From: a virus
Direction: 5' to 3' (one strand)
Virus record (IMG/VR): IMGVR_UViG_3300020442_000009
Coordinates: 61,910-125,909 of that record
DNA length: 64,000 bases
A program made the position numbers and the translations under genes. The notes under the pieces are model-generated. The model did not search any database and was not told the origin of the DNA. It saw only the letters and a program-made list of their open reading frames with translations. Each line of letters opens with the position of its first letter. Positions within the stretch are counted from its first letter, which is position 1. Below are positions 19,266 through 63,199 of the stretch, piece after piece.

Positions 19266-20246
19266 ATGAAAATACTTATTGCAGGAGCTGGCGGTTTTAT
19301 AGCAGGACATTTAACGAGAGCATTAGCAGCTGAAGAAGAGCATCAAATTACTGCTGTTGATATTAAAAAGAAAGAAAATTGGTTTCAAGTTAGTAAATCT
19401 GAAAAGGTGGATAGTATTGGTAAGATAGATTTAAAAGATAGGCATCTTGTTAAGAAGTTGTTATCTGAAAATAGATATGATAGAATTTATAATTTAGCAT
19501 GTAACATGGGGGGTATGGGCTTTATACAAAATAACCATGTAGATTGCTTAGAGAGTGTTTATATACAAACTAATTTTATTACGGTTATGAGAGAAATGGA
19601 TAACCCTCCTTCCATTTTTTACAGCTCTTCTGCCTGTGCTTATCCAGAGCATATACAGCAAGAAGTAAGTTCTCCAGCCATTAAGGAAAGTGATGCATAT
19701 CCTGCAGCACCTCAAGATGGTTACGGTTGGGAAAAATTATTTAGTGAAATCATTACACAACATGCAGCTAAAGATCACTCTTTGGATACAAGAATAGCTA
19801 GATTTCATAATTGCTATGGGCCATTTGGTACTTGGCAGGGAGGTAGAGAGAAAGCTCCAGCGGCATTGTGTAGGAAGGTTATTGAAGCTCAACAAAGTAA
19901 AAATCTTAAAATTGATGTTTGGGGAGACGGAGAGCAAACTAGATCTTTTATGTATGTTGATGATTGTATAGAGGGAATGGATAGATTGTGGGATAGTGAT
20001 TATTCAGATCCAGTTAATTTAGGTAGCTCAGAGTTAGTTAGTATTAATCAAATGATTGATATGATAGAAGACATAGCTGGCGTGAAAGTTGAAAGAAATT
20101 ATCAACTAGATAAACCTCAGGGTGTTAGAGGTAGAAATAGTGATAACTCCCTAATTAAAAAAATAACTAGTGGTTGGGAGCCTTCAATTAAATTATTTAA
20201 TGGATTAGAAAAAACTTATTCTTGGATCTGGGATCAAATCATTTAA
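19266..20246 (+). CDS. GDP-mannose 3,5-epimerase-like SDR enzyme
   Basis: This 326-aa extended short-chain dehydrogenase has an N-terminal NAD loop GAGGFIAGHL. It matches the GDP-mannose 3,5-epimerase subgroup closely: LACNMGGMGFIQNNH, SSSACAYPE, the catalytic YGWEK with PAAPQDG before it, RFHNCYGPFGTWQGGREKAP and WGDGEQTRSFMYVDDCIEG. That enzyme makes GDP-L-galactose or GDP-L-gulose from GDP-mannose. The substrate assignment rests on the MGGMGFI and GTWQGGREKAP blocks. It stands alone on the plus strand with its own near-leaderless promoter. The product could feed GT90 or fucosyltransferase-like enzymes. It ends tail-to-tail with the next gene (4-nt overlap). Confidence 0.85.
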   Translation: MKILIAGAGGFIAGHLTRALAAEEEHQITAVDIKKKENWFQVSKSEKVDSIGKIDLKDRHLVKKLLSENRYDRIYNLACNMGGMGFIQNNHVDCLESVYIQTNFITVMREMDNPPSIFYSSSACAYPEHIQQEVSSPAIKESDAYPAAPQDGYGWEKLFSEIITQHAAKDHSLDTRIARFHNCYGPFGTWQGGREKAPAALCRKVIEAQQSKNLKIDVWGDGEQTRSFMYVDDCIEGMDRLWDSDYSDPVNLGSSELVSINQMIDMIEDIAGVKVERNYQLDKPQGVRGRNSDNSLIKKITSGWEPSIKLFNGLEKTYSWIWDQII

Positions 20247-21043
20247 TAATTTTTTTTAAAAGGTAGCATTTTGCTATTATTAACTGGGTTGTGATGGGCT
20301 GGACAACCCCATTTGTTTTGAAAAAAACCATGAGCCATAGCTTCTTTTCTTGAACTTTCATGGCTTTCTTCTGGAGTTTTTCTCGTTGCAGCTCCAGCAA
20401 AATGATAAAAGTTGCAAGCATATGTTCTCTCCATTTTTAAACCCCAATATTCACACTTAAGAAAGAAATCCCAATCAACTACATGTGGAGATGGATAAAG
20501 CTCATCCCAGCCACCTAAAGCTAAATAGTCATATTTGTTTATTGCAAAGGGCAGGGTAGAGCCCTCTTCTGTTGTTTCATTTTTTCTTAACAAAACTTCT
20601 TCTTTTTGAAAATTAGAGATATCAAATGTGTTGGGATTTTTGCCAAAATCTTTTATTATAAATTGAGGAAACATTGATGGGTTAGGCTCAATTTGGTTTG
20701 GAGTTAATACTGATTTTGGTTTTAAGTTTTCGGCAATAATTGTATCCCAATTTGACGGGAAAATATTATCATCATTGACCACTAAAATAGTGTCATTGCT
20801 TGAGTTATAAACACCTAGATTTGTAGCTACAGATAAACCTTGGTTAGTTGGTAGATTTAAAACTTTTATATTATCTTCCAGTGCTTTATATTTTTCAATA
20901 ACGGTTTTATTTAAATCATAAAATCCATCAACCACTATAACTACCTCGAAATTCTTCCTTGAGGAGGGTTCCATGAATATAGATTTAAGACATACGTCTA
21001 AATAATCTGGCTCTTTGTATGTTGGTATAATTACTGATATCAT
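20243..21043 (-). CDS. GT2-family glycosyltransferase
   Basis: At 266 aa it begins MISVIIPTYKEPDYLDVCLK, the standard GT2 nucleotide-binding strand. EVVIVVDGFYD and the ILVVNDDNIFPSNWD D-x-D strand follow, then LGGWDELYPSPHVVDWDFFL (acceptor side; the ED-like pair is VVDWD). Its C-terminus is His/Asn-rich. Donor unknown. It is the last gene of the 31190-20243 operon. Confidence 0.85.
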   Translation of the reverse strand: MISVIIPTYKEPDYLDVCLKSIFMEPSSRKNFEVVIVVDGFYDLNKTVIEKYKALEDNIKVLNLPTNQGLSVATNLGVYNSSNDTILVVNDDNIFPSNWDTIIAENLKPKSVLTPNQIEPNPSMFPQFIIKDFGKNPNTFDISNFQKEEVLLRKNETTEEGSTLPFAINKYDYLALGGWDELYPSPHVVDWDFFLKCEYWGLKMERTYACNFYHFAGAATRKTPEESHESSRKEAMAHGFFQNKWGCPAHHNPVNNSKMLPFKKNY

Positions 21044-21044
21044 A

Positions 21045-21743
21045 TTAAAATAATCTGGCTGTTACTTTGTCCCACTCTATTAGTGGGGTTAAAAATTTTG
21101 TTTCTCCATGTGTGGATAGTCCGGGAATCGATGATACTAGTTTTCTTCCTTTTTCATTTAAGTTGAGAAACATTTTAAAGTCGTCTGGGTGAGTGGACGA
21201 TGTCCACTTTCTTAAAATTTCTTCATCTTTCTTTAATGTTTTTACTTTTGCTGCAAAAGTCATTGTTGTTGAGTTAGTTATTTTCCAATGGCTGTATTTA
21301 CCACAATAAACTCTAGTATCTTCAGCACCTCCTTTGCAAAATGGGTTTCCCCCAAACATGGGCTCCCAGTATTTATCAGGGTGATCATAAAGCGTTACAT
21401 AGTCTCCGAAGCCTAGTCCCTCTGGTATGGCAAATGGAGATAATTCTAAATGTAAATAGTCATTTTCTAAAAAATATACAATATCTTCATCATCAAAAGT
21501 TAATGCTTTATCTAAAGCTAGATTAAAAGTTCCTGCTCCATGACCAACTGAAACATCTTCTATATTAGACTGAAAGCCTAAAATCATACGTTTAGTATCG
21601 CTTGAAATATTATCAGCAATTACAGTCCAGTCACAGTCTCTATAGAAGACATCTGTTGCATTTTTGAGACACTCTTTATTGTTTACATAAGGTGGTTTTT
21701 CTTTTTCGTAACCAGAGTCTGATATTCTATATAAAATTTTCAT
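21045..21743 (-). CDS. GT-A-like glycosyltransferase
   Basis: The 232-aa protein starts KILYRISDSGYEKEKPPYVN with a Cys-bearing loop. VSVGHGAGTFNLALDKAL is followed by DIVYFLENDYLH, where the E-x-D replaces D-x-D, then YDHPDKYW and a C-terminal GETKFLTPLIEW. This order occurs in GT2-like proteins of marine phage and bacterial polysaccharide loci. The family call is moderate. It overlaps the gene upstream by 4 nt and is 1 nt from the one downstream. Confidence 0.6.
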   Translation of the reverse strand: MKILYRISDSGYEKEKPPYVNNKECLKNATDVFYRDCDWTVIADNISSDTKRMILGFQSNIEDVSVGHGAGTFNLALDKALTFDDEDIVYFLENDYLHLELSPFAIPEGLGFGDYVTLYDHPDKYWEPMFGGNPFCKGGAEDTRVYCGKYSHWKITNSTTMTFAAKVKTLKKDEEILRKWTSSTHPDDFKMFLNLNEKGRKLVSSIPGLSTHGETKFLTPLIEWDKVTARLF

Positions 21744-22396
21744 AAGTCTTTATCTTTTCTGTTGCCCAGATGAGGCACATGTTGTATACCTGTCAGTTTT
21801 TTATTGATATATACTTTGTGTTTTATTATATTCCATAATGCATGACTAACCCTGAAGTCTCCTGAGCCCCAAGGTTCAAATTGTGCATCTTTTATGTATT
21901 TAGAATGAAACATAAAACCTATCATACTTATGTTGGCTGGAATTGGGGGAGATGTTTCTAGGTTTGGGCTGCCTTGTCTAGGAATAGTAAACCCCGGAAA
22001 TTCCACATCCCAAAAAAGTAAAGTATCATCATTTTTTATGTGACTAACTATTTCTGAAAGAGACTCGTTTGAAATGAAATGATCGTCATCGTCTAGAAAC
22101 ATTATCCAACCCTCTTCAACCAAATCATACATATCATTTAAATAAGAGTTCCACCAAGCAGGACTGTCAGAGCCTCCGTACCAAAAACTTTTATGTTGCT
22201 CGTGTCTGTATTTTAAAGGATCTATGTATAAAAAGCTTTCTCTATGTTTTTCAATATATGTGCTTGCAGAGTGTTCGTCTGTACCTATTATATGTTTAAT
22301 ATTTTCGTAAGTTTGAGAGTCAACACTTTTGCAGCAATCCCTAAAATAGTTTGGCCTATTTGATGTTCTCGTTAAAATGTTTACTTTTTCCGACAT
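21740..22396 (-). CDS. GT2-family glycosyltransferase
   Basis: At 218 aa, VNILTRTSNRPNYFRDCCKS is a GT2 entry strand of the TRTxNRP type. WNSYLNDMYDLVEEGWIMFL is followed by DDDDHF, a strong metal-binding motif, and ending strands carry ANISMIGFMFHSKYI. It lacks a long C-terminal domain. It overlaps the NeuB-like gene by 16 nt, suggesting it handles the sugar made by the adjacent enzymes, but that is inference. Confidence 0.8.
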   Translation of the reverse strand: MSEKVNILTRTSNRPNYFRDCCKSVDSQTYENIKHIIGTDEHSASTYIEKHRESFLYIDPLKYRHEQHKSFWYGGSDSPAWWNSYLNDMYDLVEEGWIMFLDDDDHFISNESLSEIVSHIKNDDTLLFWDVEFPGFTIPRQGSPNLETSPPIPANISMIGFMFHSKYIKDAQFEPWGSGDFRVSHALWNIIKHKVYINKKLTGIQHVPHLGNRKDKDL

Positions 22397-55610: not shown

Positions 55611-57221
55611 TTAAAAAATACCAGTTTGAGTATATGTAAATGCTCCTCCAGTATAGGCTAATCCAGTAGAAGAGTAATTTGGACCCCAAGCGGCAGACGG
55701 TATCATTTGACTAAGTTGATTGCCCTTGCCTCCACCGAAATCTGAACATAGCTCATATTTATCAAATAATTCTTGCGGGCCTTCTAGATCAGTAATTAAA
55801 ACTTGATAAGGATTTTTGTATAAAATTCTAGATTTAACACAATTAAATGTATCTAAATCATATAATTCTACATTGAAAAATTCCGAAGGCTCCTCAATCG
55901 CATTGTATATTGTGCCTATATCTATAATTTTTTCGTTTTCTCCTACTGCAAAATTTAAGACTCCATGAGTTCCTGTATAATCAACCCCAGAAACCGCAGT
56001 AGATGGAGTATCAAAAGTTCTGTATTTAACGGAAAATGCTCCGGTGTAATGACTATTATGGCAACACGGCTCTCTATAAACTCTTACTCCAGTAGTTTGA
56101 CCTTCTACAACATAAGTAGAGTAGTATTGAAATCTAATGTTTAAGTATTTTTCTGCACAGGTTGGAGTTGGAGTAAGAGTGACAGTCGGAGTTGTTGTTT
56201 TTGTTGGAGTAATTGTAGCTGTTGGGGTAGCTGTTGCTACAGGTGTTTGAGTTGCCGTTGGAGTAATAGTAGAGGTTGGTGTAACCGTTGGTGTTGGAGT
56301 TACTGATATTGTAGGTGTAGAGGTTATTGATATAGTCGGTGTTGGGGTTACTGATATGGTAGCAGTAGGAGTTACTGATATAGTAGCTGTAGGAGTAACC
56401 GATATGGTAGATGTAGGAGTAACTGATATGGTAGCCGTAGGAGTAACAGATATGGTTGGTGTTGGAGTTACCGATATAGTAGCTGTTGGAGTTACTGATA
56501 TAGTTGGCGTTGGAGTGATCGATATTGTGGGTGTGGGAGTAACTGATATGGTAGCTGTAGGAGTAACCGATATTGTGGGTGTCGGGGTGATCGATATAGT
56601 TGGCGTTGGAGTGATCGATATTGTGGGTGTGGGAGTAACTGATATGGTAGCTGTAGGAGTAACCGATATTGTGGGTGTCGGGGTGATCGATATAGTTGGT
56701 GTTGGAGTGATCGATATTGTGGGTGTGGGAGTAGCCGTAGGAGTAATGGTTGAGGTTGGAGTAGGCGTTGTTGTCTCAGTAGGAGTTTGAGTGGGTGTCC
56801 TTGTTGGAGTTCGTGTTAAGGTTGGAGTAGTGGTTTGAGTTGGAGTTACAGAAGGAGTGGGAGTAACCGTCCTTGTTGGAGTCACACTTGCTACTATGTT
56901 TTTAACCAAACCGCATTTAGATTGTCTTTTTGATTCTAAATTTTCTATCAGTATTGCTGCATCATAAGATCCAAAAGCCGCATATTGATGCATATGGTCT
57001 AGCGAATATCCAGAGCCTGCAGTCCACTTTAATACACCGCTACGCTCATATGTTCCATCACCCCAGTCAATATGGTATTGTAAATTTTTAGGTATTCTAT
57101 CTTTATCACTTACATCAATATTGAAATAAGAAAGACCATAGGAATATAGATCTGGAAATTTCTCGCAACAACCAGTTTCGATTGGGCTTGGAGTTGGTTT
57201 TGGTGGACCTATATAAACCAT
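55611..57221 (-). CDS. PKD-like, Thr/Pro linker, Calx-beta virion protein
   Basis: At 536 aa, residues 1-105 contain a PKD-type domain, with YHIDWGDGTYERSGVLKWTA as the W-G-D-G-T turn and HMHQYAAFGSYDAAILIENL as the H-x-Y...G-x-Y strand. Residues 112-355 are a Thr/Pro linker built from ISVTPT/ISITPT units. Residues 358-500 are a Calx-beta domain: RFQYYSTYVVEGQTTGVRVY, SGVDYTGTHGVLNFAVGENE KIIDI, and EPSEFFNVELYDLD. Both domain types bind ligands or calcium on cell surfaces, so this is a good receptor-binding or adhesion candidate. A second linker-plus-Calx-beta protein lies directly upstream. Confidence 0.85.
   Translation of the reverse strand: MVYIGPPKPTPSPIETGCCEKFPDLYSYGLSYFNIDVSDKDRIPKNLQYHIDWGDGTYERSGVLKWTAGSGYSLDHMHQYAAFGSYDAAILIENLESKRQSKCGLVKNIVASVTPTRTVTPTPSVTPTQTTTPTLTRTPTRTPTQTPTETTTPTPTSTITPTATPTPTISITPTPTISITPTPTISVTPTATISVTPTPTISITPTPTISITPTPTISVTPTATISVTPTPTISITPTPTISVTPTATISVTPTPTISVTPTATISVTPTSTISVTPTATISVTPTATISVTPTPTISITSTPTISVTPTPTVTPTSTITPTATQTPVATATPTATITPTKTTTPTVTLTPTPTCAEKYLNIRFQYYSTYVVEGQTTGVRVYREPCCHNSHYTGAFSVKYRTFDTPSTAVSGVDYTGTHGVLNFAVGENEKIIDIGTIYNAIEEPSEFFNVELYDLDTFNCVKSRILYKNPYQVLITDLEGPQELFDKYELCSDFGGGKGNQLSQMIPSAAWGPNYSSTGLAYTGGAFTYTQTGIF
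56155..56890 (-). repeat. Thr/Pro repeat linker of the PKD/Calx-beta protein
   Basis: About 245 codons of (I/V)(S/T)(V/I)TPT-type hexad repeats. It includes the near-perfect 96-bp tandem duplication at 56517-56708. Confidence 0.9.
56517..56708 (-). repeat. 96-bp tandem duplication, two copies
   Basis: Copies 56517-56612 and 56613-56708 differ at a single position (C versus T near the end), and a third partial copy starts at 56709. The unit is 32 codons, so length changes keep the frame. Near-identity among otherwise diverged repeats implies a recent expansion. Confidence 0.92.
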
Positions 57222-57228
57222 ATCTTTT

Positions 57229-59382
57229 TTAGCTAGGTTCTACAATAAACACAGCATACGGGTTTGATCCTGTTATGAAAGAATTAACTCCTGCATATGC
57301 CGACCTTGGGTTACTTAATTTTATAAAGAAGAACTCATCATTCTCTAAAGGAGTAGTGTCTGGTGTTAAAGGTATTCCTGTAACTGTTATAGTTTTTTCA
57401 TTTTCGCCAGCAGCAAAGTAGAAGGTTCCACTACCAGACAAGTAGTCTCCATCATCATCTGTTCCGTTAGTTATGACACCAGTTACAGCACTATTTGATG
57501 CATTTTGAGTGTTCCAGTCCACAGAGAAAGGACATCCCACAAAATCAGGCTCACAATGACCAGTTTCTCGTAAGACTTTAATATTTGCAGTTCCCCCTTC
57601 AATTAAATATGTAGATGCATATTGAAATCTAACTGGAGCGTCTCCAGCACATACAGATGTAGTTGGAGTAATTGAAGGAGTTATAGAAATAGTGGGAGTA
57701 ACTGATGCTGCCGGAGTCTTGCTAGGTGTTGGAGTAACAGAAATAGTAGGTGTTGTTGTAACTGAAATCGTTGGTGTCACAGATGGACTAATTTGCCTAC
57801 TTGGCGTGGTAGTAACGGATATTGTTGGAGTTACACTGTTAGATATTGTTGGAGTAACGGTAGGAGTTGTAGTAGGAGTAGGACTTTGTGTTACAGATAT
57901 TGTTGGAGTTTGGGTAGCTGTTGGTGTTGGTGTTTGAGTGACAGAAATAGTTGGTGTTACCGATGGAGTTACTGAAGGTGTTACGGATATAGTAGGAGTA
58001 TTTGTGGGAGTAATTGATATTGTTGAAGTAGGAGTAGGAGTGGGAGTGCTTGATGGAATGGCTTTGCCCGGAGGTGGGGGCAATACAGGCTTCCACCAGC
58101 CCGGATCACCGGGATCAAACCCCCCAGTTGGAACCGGCTCAGAAGAATTACATCCAGAACCTGTACATGGGGGATCATTGGAACCCGGCGCATCTCCAGA
58201 TTCTAAACAACCTCCACTGATCAAAAAACCGTTTTCCTTAGTTACTGTAAAATCAAAATCAATTTTAGTTGTTGACATTGAATGCAAAGGAAAAGTGTTT
58301 GACCTAGATTTTAATACAGCATTATCAATTACATACCTAATTAAAGGCATTTTAGTTGGAGCATCGCAAAAACTTGAACTATGAGGGCAGTTATTATTGC
58401 ATGTAATATGAATTTCGTAAGGTTTATCTTTTTTTAATATTGTATTTAAATTTCCAATTTCTAAATCTTTATCAAGGATATCTAAAGACAGATTTCCCAT
58501 TACTGGTAAATTTAATTTTCTATCATACGGATACATAGAACCAAATCCATATAAATTTCGTCTTGATAAATCTAAATTAATATTAAAGCCTTGAGCATTC
58601 GCATTGTTACCGCTTATTTTTTGCCCGCCTATATTAGTTTCAGTTATTTTTAAATCTATATTATTAGGTAATATCGCAGGAACTGTATATTCATTTGCTG
58701 AATCATGCTTTGTAAACCCGTAATGAAAAACATCTTTCTTTTTTCCATCAAATAAATGAATCGCTGGAATATAGTTTTTATTTGCCCCACCAGCACTACT
58801 AGTACCTGAATAAGTGTCAATTTGCACATTAGATGCGGCATAAGACATATCAACTTTTACTGGTGAATTTAGTGAAGCATTTACGGAATATCTTGTTGCA
58901 AAACAATTTCCTATAGAAAGAACATTATGCCCTATGAAGTCATTGTCTTTTTGTAAAGATAAAGCTTGCTGTCCAGCATCAGACCTCAAAACCAAAAAAA
59001 AGTTTTTATCCCCATGATGCCTTGTTATAAAGCTCCTGATTGGCTCTCCACCAGAAGGCACTACGTTAAAATTTAACAAGTATTCATTAAATCCACATGT
59101 TGGTAGATATGAAAAATTAAAATTAACAGGTACTGGCTCTATGTTTACATCTATATTTGAACCGGGAGCAGGAGAATCGCTAATGACATTAATTCTTCTT
59201 GTTAATAAATCTTCGCCACCAATTTGTCTTATTTCTTCTCTGTTTATCCCAAAGTCATAACCAATAGATTGAACTTTTGTCAAATGCCTTAGAAAGTCTT
59301 TCTCCCCATCGTGATGCGGCGAAAAAGCTGGAGCGGGACCAACAAACAATGCTACATATTCAGACCTTATAAAATTCCTCAT
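57229..59382 (-). CDS. Tube-like protein fused to Thr/Pro linker and Calx-beta domain
   Basis: At 717 aa, residues 1-400 follow the plan of the two proteins at 59839 and 61484: LTKVQSIGYDFGINREEIRQ IG, NFNFSYLP..GFNEYLLNF, VLSIGNCFATRYSVNASLNS and NLPVMGNLSLDI. After a Cys/Gly/Pro hinge (SGCNSSEPVPTGGFDPGDPG) comes a Thr/Pro linker (57655-58060). A C-terminal Calx-beta domain follows (RFQYASTYLIEGGTANIKVL, SGTFYFAAGENEKTITV). A structural subunit has thus acquired a surface-displayed Ig-like-fold domain. It has a GTGTA box 20 nt before its ATG. Confidence 0.82.
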   Translation of the reverse strand: MRNFIRSEYVALFVGPAPAFSPHHDGEKDFLRHLTKVQSIGYDFGINREEIRQIGGEDLLTRRINVISDSPAPGSNIDVNIEPVPVNFNFSYLPTCGFNEYLLNFNVVPSGGEPIRSFITRHHGDKNFFLVLRSDAGQQALSLQKDNDFIGHNVLSIGNCFATRYSVNASLNSPVKVDMSYAASNVQIDTYSGTSSAGGANKNYIPAIHLFDGKKKDVFHYGFTKHDSANEYTVPAILPNNIDLKITETNIGGQKISGNNANAQGFNINLDLSRRNLYGFGSMYPYDRKLNLPVMGNLSLDILDKDLEIGNLNTILKKDKPYEIHITCNNNCPHSSSFCDAPTKMPLIRYVIDNAVLKSRSNTFPLHSMSTTKIDFDFTVTKENGFLISGGCLESGDAPGSNDPPCTGSGCNSSEPVPTGGFDPGDPGWWKPVLPPPPGKAIPSSTPTPTPTSTISITPTNTPTISVTPSVTPSVTPTISVTQTPTPTATQTPTISVTQSPTPTTTPTVTPTISNSVTPTISVTTTPSRQISPSVTPTISVTTTPTISVTPTPSKTPAASVTPTISITPSITPTTSVCAGDAPVRFQYASTYLIEGGTANIKVLRETGHCEPDFVGCPFSVDWNTQNASNSAVTGVITNGTDDDGDYLSGSGTFYFAAGENEKTITVTGIPLTPDTTPLENDEFFFIKLSNPRSAYAGVNSFITGSNPYAVFIVEPS
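57655..58060 (-). repeat. Thr/Pro repeat linker (coding)
   Basis: About 135 codons of ISVTPT/PTISVT units with several Ser-rich variants. It joins the tube-like body to the Calx-beta domain in the gene starting at 59382. Confidence 0.85.
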
Positions 59383-59441: not shown

Positions 59442-59837
59442 TTAAACTGAAGTTGTTGGTGTGGGTGTTGGCGTTGGCGAAACAGATATCGTAGGTGTTA
59501 CCGAAGGTGGAGGGGGAGTATTGGTTGGCGAAACAGATATCGTAGGTGTTACCGAAGGTGGAGGGGGAGTATTGGTTGAAGTTACGGATATCGTTGGGGT
59601 AACTGATATTGTAGGTGTCACCGACACACTTATTGTTGGAGTTATTGTTGGAGTTACGGATATCGTTGGAGTAACTGATATCGTTGGGGTTGGAGTTGGG
59701 GTAATCCAAGTTCTATGTTCACCAATTGCTGTGTGCCTATACATTTCATTACTGAACCCACCCCTTAAAGAAGGAGCATTATATCGCCCAGTAGTACCTT
59801 CGTTACCGTACCTTATAAAATATTCAAAATTACTCAC
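59442..59837 (-). CDS. C-terminal extension module with Thr/Pro tail (131 aa)
   Basis: GTG at 59835-59837 follows one base after the TAA of the 527-aa tube-like gene. The first 45 residues (SNFEYFIRYGNEGTTGRYNA) match the C-terminus of the 571-aa relative, which reads GEYFAPYGKNGTTGWYSATG. The rest is a Thr/Pro tail ending PTPTTSV, with a perfect 51-bp duplication. It therefore looks like the missing tail of the 527-aa protein, made either by reinitiation (GGAAG precedes the GTG) or by a +1 ribosomal frameshift. The +1 frame is open from just after a TAG 12 nt before the GTG. Confidence 0.75.
   Translation of the reverse strand: MSNFEYFIRYGNEGTTGRYNAPSLRGGFSNEMYRHTAIGEHRTWITPTPTPTISVTPTISVTPTITPTISVSVTPTISVTPTISVTSTNTPPPPSVTPTISVSPTNTPPPPSVTPTISVSPTPTPTPTTSV
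59476..59577 (-). repeat. 51-bp perfect tandem duplication
   Basis: 59476-59526 and 59527-59577 are identical. The unit is 17 codons (TNTPPPPSVTPTISVSP on the minus strand), so copy number can change without frame loss. Confidence 0.92.
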
Positions 59838-59838
59838 C

Positions 59839-61422
59839 TTAACTTCCGTCTAATTTACCAAACCTTGGGCTAATTGAAGGAGGCTCTTTATATTTACCAT
59901 CCTCTCCCTTAACATTAGCAAAACCAGAAAAGAAAATACCTTTATCATCTTCTTCTGGTCCAGTGATTTGGGTTACAAAAGTAAGATCAACTGATTTATT
60001 TTCTCCTATTGCCGAAGTAAATCCTTCAGATTCAAGATAAGCACCTTTAAAATCAATAGTAATTCCATCTGGCTGATTGTTAGGTGTGCATCTTATGCAC
60101 ATAGGATTTTGCATCCTTATTTTTAAATCAACCATATTTCCACAATAAATTTCATCAGCTAAATTGCCTGCTTTTATATCTGACACTAAAGCATTAACAG
60201 TTAATGTTGCGGTTACTGGGTATTCAATTTCTTTTGCAAAAGCATAAGTGTTACCCATTCTATTAAGAGATTCTCTTGCTAATGGAGCACTGAGAGTAAA
60301 ACTTTGTATGTGAGCACTACCCCTGTCATCTGACCCTTCAGAATAATCTCTTGTATCCCCTGATATTTGTTTTGATATTAAAGCTCTCCCATTTAAATCT
60401 AAATGTATGTCTCCAGCCTTTAGGCATGGAACACCAAAACCTGATTCAGAAGGTGGCAAAACAAAACATGTATCACAAATCTGAGTGCCGTCCTGAGGGT
60501 TGATTGCAGGAATTTCCCTAAAATCAGTTCCACCCACATCACTTTTTATATTTAAACCTTCCATTGTTACAGAAACTGTTGGCATTCCGCCAACACTAGC
60601 TTCAATAGAATAGTCCGTTATGAATGCATTTCCTATTGAGATAACAGATTTCCTGTCTTCGGCAACCATAGTATCTCCCTTAACAGCATCTCTACCTTCA
60701 GGAACAGTTAATATAAACATATTGTGGCCAAATTCATTTTGCTCTTTGACCATGATGCCAGATAAATGCTCTTTTTGTCCGTGAGTTACAAAGCCTAATA
60801 GTCTTTCGTTTTCACCATCCGTAATATAATAAGAAAAATCTAAATTAACAACTGGAGATTCATTTACAATCGCATCTATTCTACCAAGTTGACCAAATTG
60901 ATTTACATCTGTCCTGTTTACAGTAAAGCTATAATTTGCAGATTGTATTCTTTTAAGTTGCTCTATGGCTGTTCCCCAGCTTCCAGAAGTCGAAGTTAGG
61001 TCTTCGTTTTGAATGTATTTTAACCCACCACCAGAAACACCGCTCTTCATTCCAACGTCACTAAGAACTGCATGCTTGGCTAAAGTTACTTCATTTCCTG
61101 CACTATCTACACCCGTGCATTTATACATTCTATTTTTGTAATCAATAACTTCTGTTTTTCCGGGATTATCTCCAGTTCCAACACAGGCATCAAATACAAA
61201 AGTTTGTCCACCGTCTCCGCTTCCTGAAATCCAACACTCTGATCTATACTGCTCTCGCCCTAAGGGTGCATTTGGATAATTTGCTTTATCAATTAATCCT
61301 GCATTTGATGCAGGCATATAATATATATGCTTTCCCGTAGCATCTGGAGAAATGAACAACGCTTCACTTTGATAGATTACTCTATTTCTGTTTGAAAGTT
61401 TAGTTGTTCTTTTTTTACTCAT
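59839..61422 (-). CDS. Tube-like virion protein (527 aa), paralogue of 61484
   Basis: The N-terminus (SNRNRVIYQSEALFISPDAT GKHIYYMP) and almost every later block match the 571-aa protein upstream: QLKRIQSANYSFTVNRTDVN QFG, NLDFSYYITDGENERLLGF, FILTVPEGRDAVKGD, FITDYSIEASVGGMP, SAHIQSFTLSAPL and FKGAYLESEGFTSAIGENKS. It stops at KLDGS, about 50 residues before its relative. The missing tail is found in the adjoining 131-aa ORF. The DV-N-QFGQL strand and repeated beta units suggest a tail-tube or sheath-type structural protein, but I cannot prove it. Confidence 0.8.
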   Translation of the reverse strand: MSKKRTTKLSNRNRVIYQSEALFISPDATGKHIYYMPASNAGLIDKANYPNAPLGREQYRSECWISGSGDGGQTFVFDACVGTGDNPGKTEVIDYKNRMYKCTGVDSAGNEVTLAKHAVLSDVGMKSGVSGGGLKYIQNEDLTSTSGSWGTAIEQLKRIQSANYSFTVNRTDVNQFGQLGRIDAIVNESPVVNLDFSYYITDGENERLLGFVTHGQKEHLSGIMVKEQNEFGHNMFILTVPEGRDAVKGDTMVAEDRKSVISIGNAFITDYSIEASVGGMPTVSVTMEGLNIKSDVGGTDFREIPAINPQDGTQICDTCFVLPPSESGFGVPCLKAGDIHLDLNGRALISKQISGDTRDYSEGSDDRGSAHIQSFTLSAPLARESLNRMGNTYAFAKEIEYPVTATLTVNALVSDIKAGNLADEIYCGNMVDLKIRMQNPMCIRCTPNNQPDGITIDFKGAYLESEGFTSAIGENKSVDLTFVTQITGPEEDDKGIFFSGFANVKGEDGKYKEPPSISPRFGKLDGS

Positions 61423-61432
61423 TTTTAGATAA

Positions 61433-61462
61433 GCTACTCAAACCGAATTTAGTTTGAGTAGC
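61433..61462. other. Perfect 11-bp hairpin between the two paralogues
   Basis: GCTACTCAAAC (61433-61443), 8-nt loop and GTTTGAGTAGC (61452-61462) form an uninterrupted stem 21 nt downstream of the stop of the 571-aa gene. On the minus strand, the coding direction, the hairpin is followed by TTATCTAAAA and then the next ATG, not by a T-run. It is therefore a partial terminator, processing or stability site rather than a clean intrinsic terminator. On the plus strand AATTTTTATT follows. Confidence 0.7.
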
Positions 61463-61483: not shown

Positions 61484-63199
61484 TTAGGAATAAGCTCCTG
61501 AAGGAACTGAAACGGAAGGATTATTATCCCAAGATCCTCTGGCCTTGTATTTGTCCGACCCGAATCCAGTTGCACTGTACCAGCCAGTTGTTCCGTTCTT
61601 TCCATAAGGAGCAAAATATTCTCCAGTAGCTCTTTTTGTCTTATTCCAGAAACCTGTGAATGCAGCCTTATCATAATTGACGATACTGGGTGACATTTTT
61701 GTCAGTCCATCTGCTCCTGAAACATTTTCAAAACCAGATAAGAAAACACCCACTCCTGCTTGCTCAGGACCACCAATTTGGGTACTGAATGTCAAGTCAA
61801 CAGTTTTATTATCTCCAATTGCAGAACTGAAACTTTCTGAGTCTAGAACAGCTTTTTTGAAATCAATTAAAATTCCATCAGCATTATCATTTGGATCACA
61901 AACAACACAAGCTGGATTCTGAATCCTGATTTGCATGTCATATTGACCTCCGCAAATTAAGTTTACAAGATTTCCAGATTTAAGGTCTGCTACAAGAGCG
62001 TTAACACTCAAGGTTGCTGTAACAGGGAAATCTACTTCTTTTGCAAAAGAATATGTATTTCCAAGTCTTTGAAGTGCAGCCCTACCAAGAGGAGTACTAA
62101 GAGTGAAACTCTGAATGTGAGCACTACCAGCATCTTCAGAACCATAACCGGGAGTTCTTCCAGAAATTTGTTTTGATATGAGAGCTGAATCAGCTAAATC
62201 AATGGTAATATCTCCGGGCTTAAGAACACTAACACCATATCCAGTGTCAGCAGGAGGAAGAATAAAGCATTTTTCACAGATTTGAGTTCCGTCTTGAGGG
62301 TCAATAGCTGGAATTTGTTTAAACTCTGTTCCAATATCACTCTTAATGTTCATGCCTTCAACAGTAACAGAAGCTGTTGGGAAAGCTCCCACACTTGCTT
62401 CCATCGAGTAATCGGTTACATAACCATTTCCTAGTGAAATAGATGTTTTATTAGTTTCATCTACAAGCTGATCACCTTTAATAGCATCTCTACCTTCAGG
62501 TACAGTTAAAATAAAGTAATTGTTTCCGTACTCATTTTGCTCACGAGTCATTAATCCAGAGAGATTTTGGAATTTACCGTCACTTACAAAACCTAAAAGT
62601 CTTTCATTTTCACCGTCAGTTAAATAGTAGGAAAAGTCTAAACTTACTGTAGGAGCTTCGAGAACAACTGCGTCAATTCTTGAAAGTTGACCAAATTGAT
62701 TGATATCTTGCCTATTAATAGTAAAACTGTAGTTGGCATTTTGAACTCTTTTTAATTGCTCAATAGCGGAACCCCACTCTCCGTCATAATCAACACCGGA
62801 AGTTCTTGTAGTTCCTCTTACCCCATTGGAAAGCTTAGCAAGTGCTGATTTACTACCAGAAATACCACTTACCATTCCATCGTCGGCAAGAACTGCATGG
62901 CGGTTTACTGCGTTACCAGTTCCTAGTCCGTCACCAGTACAATTGTACATTTTATATTTGTAATCAAAAGAAGTCGTAACTCCTGTACCTGCACAAGCAT
63001 CAAAAATTATGTCAGCTGCTCCTGTGGTCAGACCAGTAATGTAGCAGTCAGACTGATACTCAGCTGAACTTCTTGTTCCTGTAACAAGCCCTGCATTAAG
63101 CGGCGGCATGTAGTAAATGTGCTTTCCTGTAGCGTCTGGTGAAATGAACAACGCCTCACTTTGGTAGATAACTCTGTTTCTTGGTGGTAATTTAGCCAT
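61484..63199 (-). CDS. Tube-like virion protein (571 aa), fullest of three related copies
   Basis: The N-terminus is MAKLPPRNRVIYQSEALFIS. Shared blocks with the 527-aa gene: QLKRVQNANYSFTINRQDIN QFGQL, LDFSYYLTDGENERLLGFVS, FILTVPEGRDAIKGDQ, YVTDYSMEASVGAFP, DGTQICEKCFILPP, SAHIQSFTLSTPLGRAALQR and FKKAVLDSESFSSAIGDN. The last 50 residues (FTGFWNKTKRATGEYFAPYG) carry a module found separately as the 131-aa ORF. No signal peptide or enzyme motif. It is likely a major structural (tail-tube- or sheath-like) subunit. The leader is unusual: a GTGTA box lies 33 nt rather than 14-20 nt before the ATG. Confidence 0.8.
   Translation of the reverse strand: MAKLPPRNRVIYQSEALFISPDATGKHIYYMPPLNAGLVTGTRSSAEYQSDCYITGLTTGAADIIFDACAGTGVTTSFDYKYKMYNCTGDGLGTGNAVNRHAVLADDGMVSGISGSKSALAKLSNGVRGTTRTSGVDYDGEWGSAIEQLKRVQNANYSFTINRQDINQFGQLSRIDAVVLEAPTVSLDFSYYLTDGENERLLGFVSDGKFQNLSGLMTREQNEYGNNYFILTVPEGRDAIKGDQLVDETNKTSISLGNGYVTDYSMEASVGAFPTASVTVEGMNIKSDIGTEFKQIPAIDPQDGTQICEKCFILPPADTGYGVSVLKPGDITIDLADSALISKQISGRTPGYGSEDAGSAHIQSFTLSTPLGRAALQRLGNTYSFAKEVDFPVTATLSVNALVADLKSGNLVNLICGGQYDMQIRIQNPACVVCDPNDNADGILIDFKKAVLDSESFSSAIGDNKTVDLTFSTQIGGPEQAGVGVFLSGFENVSGADGLTKMSPSIVNYDKAAFTGFWNKTKRATGEYFAPYGKNGTTGWYSATGFGSDKYKARGSWDNNPSVSVPSGAYS

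Follow-up and report, generated by a model that had tools for sequence, protein, structure and literature searches.

The 131-residue open reading frame that begins one nucleotide beyond the stop codon of a predicted 527-residue tail-tube protein is likely to be a structural gene in its own right, consisting of a module cut from the duplicated tube gene, a GTG start codon of its own and a Thr/Pro stalk, with a product that probably docks onto the virion. It lies in the last 64 kb, referred to here as the window, of a 125,909-base contig from an uncultured virus; this region encodes several Thr/Pro-rich proteins and two large minus-strand proteins of 571 and 527 aa, which are 64% identical to one another. 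The 131-aa product is most likely a separate protein, not the result of ribosomal slippage, because copies of the same unit elsewhere in the contig have start codons of their own.

The junction between the two reading frames

As read from the sequence, the gene for the 527-aa protein (window positions 59839-61422, minus strand) ends GAC GGA AGT TAA, its stop codon occupying 59841-59839. Between the TAA and the GTG (59837-59835) that opens the 131-aa ORF in the +1 frame lies a single base, G (59838), and the whole TAA-G-GTG junction spans 59835-59841 on the minus strand. The 131-aa ORF (59442-59837, minus strand) reads (V/M)SNFEYFIRYGNEGTTGRY, then continues as Thr/Pro repeats up to its end; its N-terminal EYFxRYGxEGTTG module (about 59837-59703) is recognised through similarity to the N-termini of the 310- and 291-aa proteins described below. 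Upstream, this frame is closed by a TAG at 59852-59850. The initial annotation correctly placed this codon 12 nt before the GTG, but the two ORFs that it described as overlapping are 1 nt apart, and only the open frames share sequence, namely the four codons between the TAG and the GTG that run across the 527-aa stop. The interval it gave for the whole feature, 59820-61422, was also too short, ending 18 nt into the 131-aa ORF when the tail reaches 59442. Inspection of the sequence reveals no homopolymer at the junction.

One-nucleotide gaps separate 8 of 141 same-strand neighbouring pairs and 4-base overlaps join 29, while GTG is the start codon of 15 of the 158 predicted genes, all these counts being based on mechanical gene calls. 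Shine-Dalgarno motifs are not enriched in the genome (12.7%, compared with 9.5% in the control), and because no use of them can be detected, they give no measure of how strongly the GTG would initiate; a start of the 131-aa gene driven by such a motif is neither supported nor refuted. Across the whole contig, upstream regions are A/T-rich and seldom carry G or C at -6, which together with the absent Shine-Dalgarno enrichment points to a host that initiates translation without this motif. The Bacteroidota initiate translation in this manner. On the plus strand, long antisense ORFs with VGVTDIVGV repeats run over the Thr/Pro genes, at 59461-59853 and elsewhere; these are likely to be by-products of the DNA repeats encoding Thr/Pro, not genes.

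Tail-tube proteins and their C-terminal module

Searches of sequence libraries with the 527-aa protein produced nothing firm, and there were zero matches in the phage collection; similarly, no cultured relatives emerged when the 527-aa and 131-aa proteins, the L046 tube protein and the 310-aa head domain were searched by tblastn. When IMG/VR was scanned with three aligned tube-family members from the same contig, 47 loci were found, and a second scan for the family yielded 80, the uncultured relatives closest to the 527-aa protein being represented by loci L021/L022, L074/L078 and L075. As an AF2 model built from 3 sequences only had a pLDDT of 28, a deeper alignment of 37 family sequences was used instead, giving a pTM of 0.68. 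The best matches of this model in the PDB, as found with Foldseek, are the tail tubes of SH-Ab15497, T5 and P74-26 (E about 1e-10 to 1e-9), and the top matches are either tail tubes or tail-tip tube-like proteins. The alignments cover 350-400 columns of duplicated-domain chains of the T5 pb6 and P74-26 type, with TM-scores (target) of 0.47-0.64 for the model with its domains not separated. From these fold matches, and from the tape-measure-like protein encoded close to the tube gene in L021, the 527-aa protein is therefore predicted to be a tail-tube protein.

The 571-aa protein (61484-63199, minus strand) is probably the major copy of the tube, as judged from its identity to the 527-aa protein, from module shuffles and from the tree, and it retains the C-terminal module, EYFAPYGKNGTTGWY... 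(about 61487-61621). The initial annotation had this protein ending in the module; the motif is indeed present, but lies near the end and not at it, with 30 further residues following. In the tree, the pairing of the two copies is weak (82/78), and both join the tube of L021 (97/99). Another member of the tube family (443 aa, 36% identical) is encoded far from the tail cluster at contig positions 37682-39013 (L019), beside a gene for a Clp-like ATPase.

The module of the 131-aa ORF scores 67 against the tail of the 571-aa protein, for which the maximum in 5000 shuffles is 54, and 75 against the tail of the L021 tube, with a shuffle maximum of 50. These scores agree with the sequence itself in upholding the observation that the 527-aa gene lacks the module and that the next ORF starts with it in the +1 frame; no significant remnant of the module was found at the C-terminal end of the 527-aa protein. 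Chance similarity of the EYF, RYG and GTTG motifs is excluded by the shuffles, the paralogs and the relatives.

In relatives at 55-59% identity to the 527-aa protein, the module is found in frame at the C-terminus of a single tube protein, as ...GDGALKFFRYGAEGTTGYYNGSHLSGWNSEVRLHTKKH in L021/L022, ...GDGLKYFRYGHLGTSGYYSGKESEGWNSEVAKHTKHF in L074/L078 and ...GDGLKYYKYGHLGTTGVGY... in L075. The search for intact fusions among relatives, suggested in the initial annotation, hence finds tube and module in one frame at all of these loci, and together with the fusion in the 571-aa paralog it bears out the view that the module here has been separated from the tube. The split between the two is not conserved. 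Because the module is C-terminal on the tube in both the sampled close relatives and the paralog, its loss from the 527-aa protein would most simply be a lineage-specific split. Gene order is kept in L021 and L078, comprising a Thr/Pro protein, the tube with its module, and a tube-like protein with Thr/Pro and Calx-beta-like parts; a second tube copy is absent from the corresponding place in both. No free-standing module genes were found in the L021, L022, L074, L075 and L078 records, a weak absence because these records may be fragments.

The 64-nt intergenic stretch that follows the 571-aa gene folds at -17.8 kcal/mol (z = -7.4), forming the predicted hairpin GCTACTCAAACT-loop-GGTTTGAGTAGC (61433-61462, minus strand). 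Hairpins occur at the equivalent place after the tube genes of the relatives, with z = -3.3 to -5.5 (L021 9609-9682; L074 7618-7703; L075 7612-7690). As a hairpin trails the tube gene of the relatives and the 571-aa gene here, this distribution suggests that the latter is the main copy and that the 527- and 131-aa pair is an added cassette. The element is possibly a terminator, or else an mRNA-stabilising structure, that sets the expression of the downstream cassette.

Free-standing module genes and Thr/Pro neighbours

Two other genes in the same contig, encoding proteins of 310 aa (contig 20143-21075) and 291 aa (21079-21954), carry the module at the N-terminus, followed by a Thr/Pro stalk and a head domain. 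Both have an ATG directly before the module (MSFQYFQRYGDEGTTGRFNAP...WITPTPTPTIS). The module of the 131-aa protein is 63-64% identical to these N-termini, with which it has WITPTPTPTIS in common, and about 40% identical to the tube tails. Its first residues, (V/M)SNFEYF, align with the MSFQYF of the 310- and 291-aa proteins, such that the start codon is found at the homologous position; this is unlikely to have come about by chance, because start-like codons make up just 2.8% of internal codons, equivalent to a probability of about 3% at a given position. Between the 131- and 310-aa modules, 11, 11 and 25 codon changes fall at positions 1, 2 and 3 respectively, as expected of a translated frame. 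The 291-aa gene likewise begins after a one-base gap, its junction with an unrelated 85-aa ORF upstream being TAA-A-ATG. Only the module and stalk are shared with these paralogs, the 131-aa protein being without their C-terminal head domain. Searches of Pfam and PHROGs, and by tblastn, with the heads of the 310- and 291-aa proteins gave only phrog_15511, matched via the Thr/Pro stretch, and no homologues of the 310-aa head occur in the L021/L022 records. A 59-aa ORF at contig positions 15781-15960 (L013 1483-1662) consists largely of the module (SEYFKRYGGQGTRGR...HTAKND), with no Thr/Pro stalk.

Module searches of viral contigs with patterns A3 and A4 recovered zero relatives, because the tube tails deviate from the pattern, while those with A7 and A9 did find relatives; a scan of the genome collection with pattern A6 gave no module matches.

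The neighbouring 717-aa protein (57229-59382, minus strand) was found from library matches and synteny to be a single in-frame fusion, in which a tube-like domain is followed by a Thr/Pro stalk and then by a weak match to Calx-beta; L021 and L078 have syntenic homologues (757 and 739 aa, respectively). Since tube-like and Thr/Pro parts are already joined in frame in this gene, slippage, which the initial annotation had invoked to extend a tube subunit with Thr/Pro, is superfluous for that purpose. Thr/Pro stalk proteins with Calx-beta-like domains at the end are encoded in the window at both 57229-59382 and 55611-57221, on the minus strand; in L021 the stalks are Thr/Gln/Pro-rich, and thus the linker drifts in composition without loss of the end domains. 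Also near the tube genes of the relatives (L021 529-2386 and L078 3-1806, both minus strand) are paired genes of 281/282 and 319/335 aa, separated by a 1-nt gap and with a GTG start. The pair in L021 adjoins the tape-measure-like gene and has the junction TGA-T-GTG; these are possibly a tail assembly chaperone pair.

Origin, expression and role of the separated module

The sequence of events that would account for this arrangement is the severing, in this lineage, of a module of about 35 aa (YFxRYGxEGTTG...) from the duplicated 527-aa tube gene, after which the module would start at its own GTG and bear the Thr/Pro stalk. Translation of the 131-aa protein probably begins either by reinitiation, once ribosomes have terminated at the 527-aa stop, or by direct initiation. 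Reinitiation at the GTG had been put forward in the initial annotation and is a live mechanism, having been documented at close gene junctions in bacteria and archaea, one of the pairs tested having its genes a single base apart (PMC6728339).

That the relatives' fusion is in one frame makes a one-base assembly error a serious rival. If an indel was introduced in assembly or sequencing, or a frameshift mutation happened recently, tube, module and Thr/Pro would form one ORF in the true or parental gene, which is consistent with the single frame kept by the close relatives sampled and by the 571-aa paralog, and with a shift of just one base separating frames that share four open codons. Such an error is nevertheless unlikely, as the junction lacks a homopolymer, the start codon is found where the free-standing paralogs have ATG, and the module unit also forms separate genes in other parts of the contig. 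A near-identical copy of the TAA-G-GTG junction was not found among other viral contigs, a set from which such close records may have been withheld, the split being known from one metagenome contig. Alternatively, the 131-aa gene could derive from the copying of a dispersed gene for module and Thr/Pro, with the module of the 527-aa protein lost separately. The greater similarity of the 131-aa module to the 310- and 291-aa proteins than to the tube tails, and the common WITPTPTPTIS, fit such an origin, but the gene sits at the place of the tube module, 1 nt past the stop, and no significant remnant of one is seen where the 527-aa protein ends. This scenario is highly improbable, and in any case would entail the same expression of a separate protein as the severing of the tube module.

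Programmed +1 frameshifting near the 527-aa stop, the other mechanism in the initial annotation, would give a minor fraction of tube subunits carrying the module and Thr/Pro stalk, in the manner of gp17.1* of SPP1, a known case of +1 slippage at the stop of a tail-tube gene (PMC6316719). The upstream protein here is likewise a predicted tail tube, and the extension is in the +1 frame, open for four codons across the stop. However, the codons GGA AGU UAA G contain no slippery site resembling CCC-U-AA and no rare sense codon (AGT and GGA are used 17 and 24 times per 1000 codons, against 4.6 for CCC), and re-pairing on GAA or GUU would be poor by base-pairing rules. These properties, along with a split that is not conserved in relatives, make slippage very unlikely, and the existence of paralogs with their own starts makes it unnecessary. 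The case is a warning against reading a programmed frameshift into a stop codon closely followed by a start where phage genes are tightly packed.

Under the preferred reading, in which the 131-aa ORF is a separate gene, docking to the virion best explains why the 35-aa piece is found at the C-terminus of tubes and at the N-terminus of stalked proteins. The piece would dock the 131-, 310- and 291-aa proteins onto the virion, most likely at the tail tube, because the module belongs to the tube protein in relatives. A more specific proposal, which is speculative and rather doubtful, is that the free module proteins of 131, 291 and 310 aa act in trans to fill the vacant place on the 527-aa subunits, where they would hang their Thr/Pro stalks and heads from the tail; if true, this would represent a cut-out-and-plug-in decoration of a phage tail. 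C-terminal extensions of tail tubes are usually fused domains, sometimes attached through a programmed frameshift. In this one genome, a short module is the fused C-terminus of some proteins and the free N-terminal anchor of others, and this suggests that tails may be decorated by way of a portable docking piece, an idea that is directly testable.

One of the closest known parallels is gp17.1/gp17.1* of SPP1, also a tail-tube gene with a +1-frame extension at its stop. There, ribosomes pause at the rare CCC and shift to CCU within CCCUAA (PMC6316719), whereas here there is no slip site of the CCCUAA type, and the extension has both its own start codon and free-standing paralogs. The extension also differs in kind, being a 35-aa module and Thr/Pro stalk as opposed to an FN3 domain (PMC6316719, PMC7666168). 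Tail-tube proteins can carry C-terminal extensions (PMC8718954), and those of T5 (pb6) and P74-26 have a fold in common with the 527-aa protein according to Foldseek; the C-terminal piece in the phage studied here, however, is a short module and not an Ig domain, and is encoded by a separate gene for one of the two tube copies. The single-ORF tubes of L021/L022, L074/L078 and L075 have this same module, and the gene order is alike in L021 and L078, but the module that is fused in frame in those relatives has a separate gene here next to the 527-aa copy.
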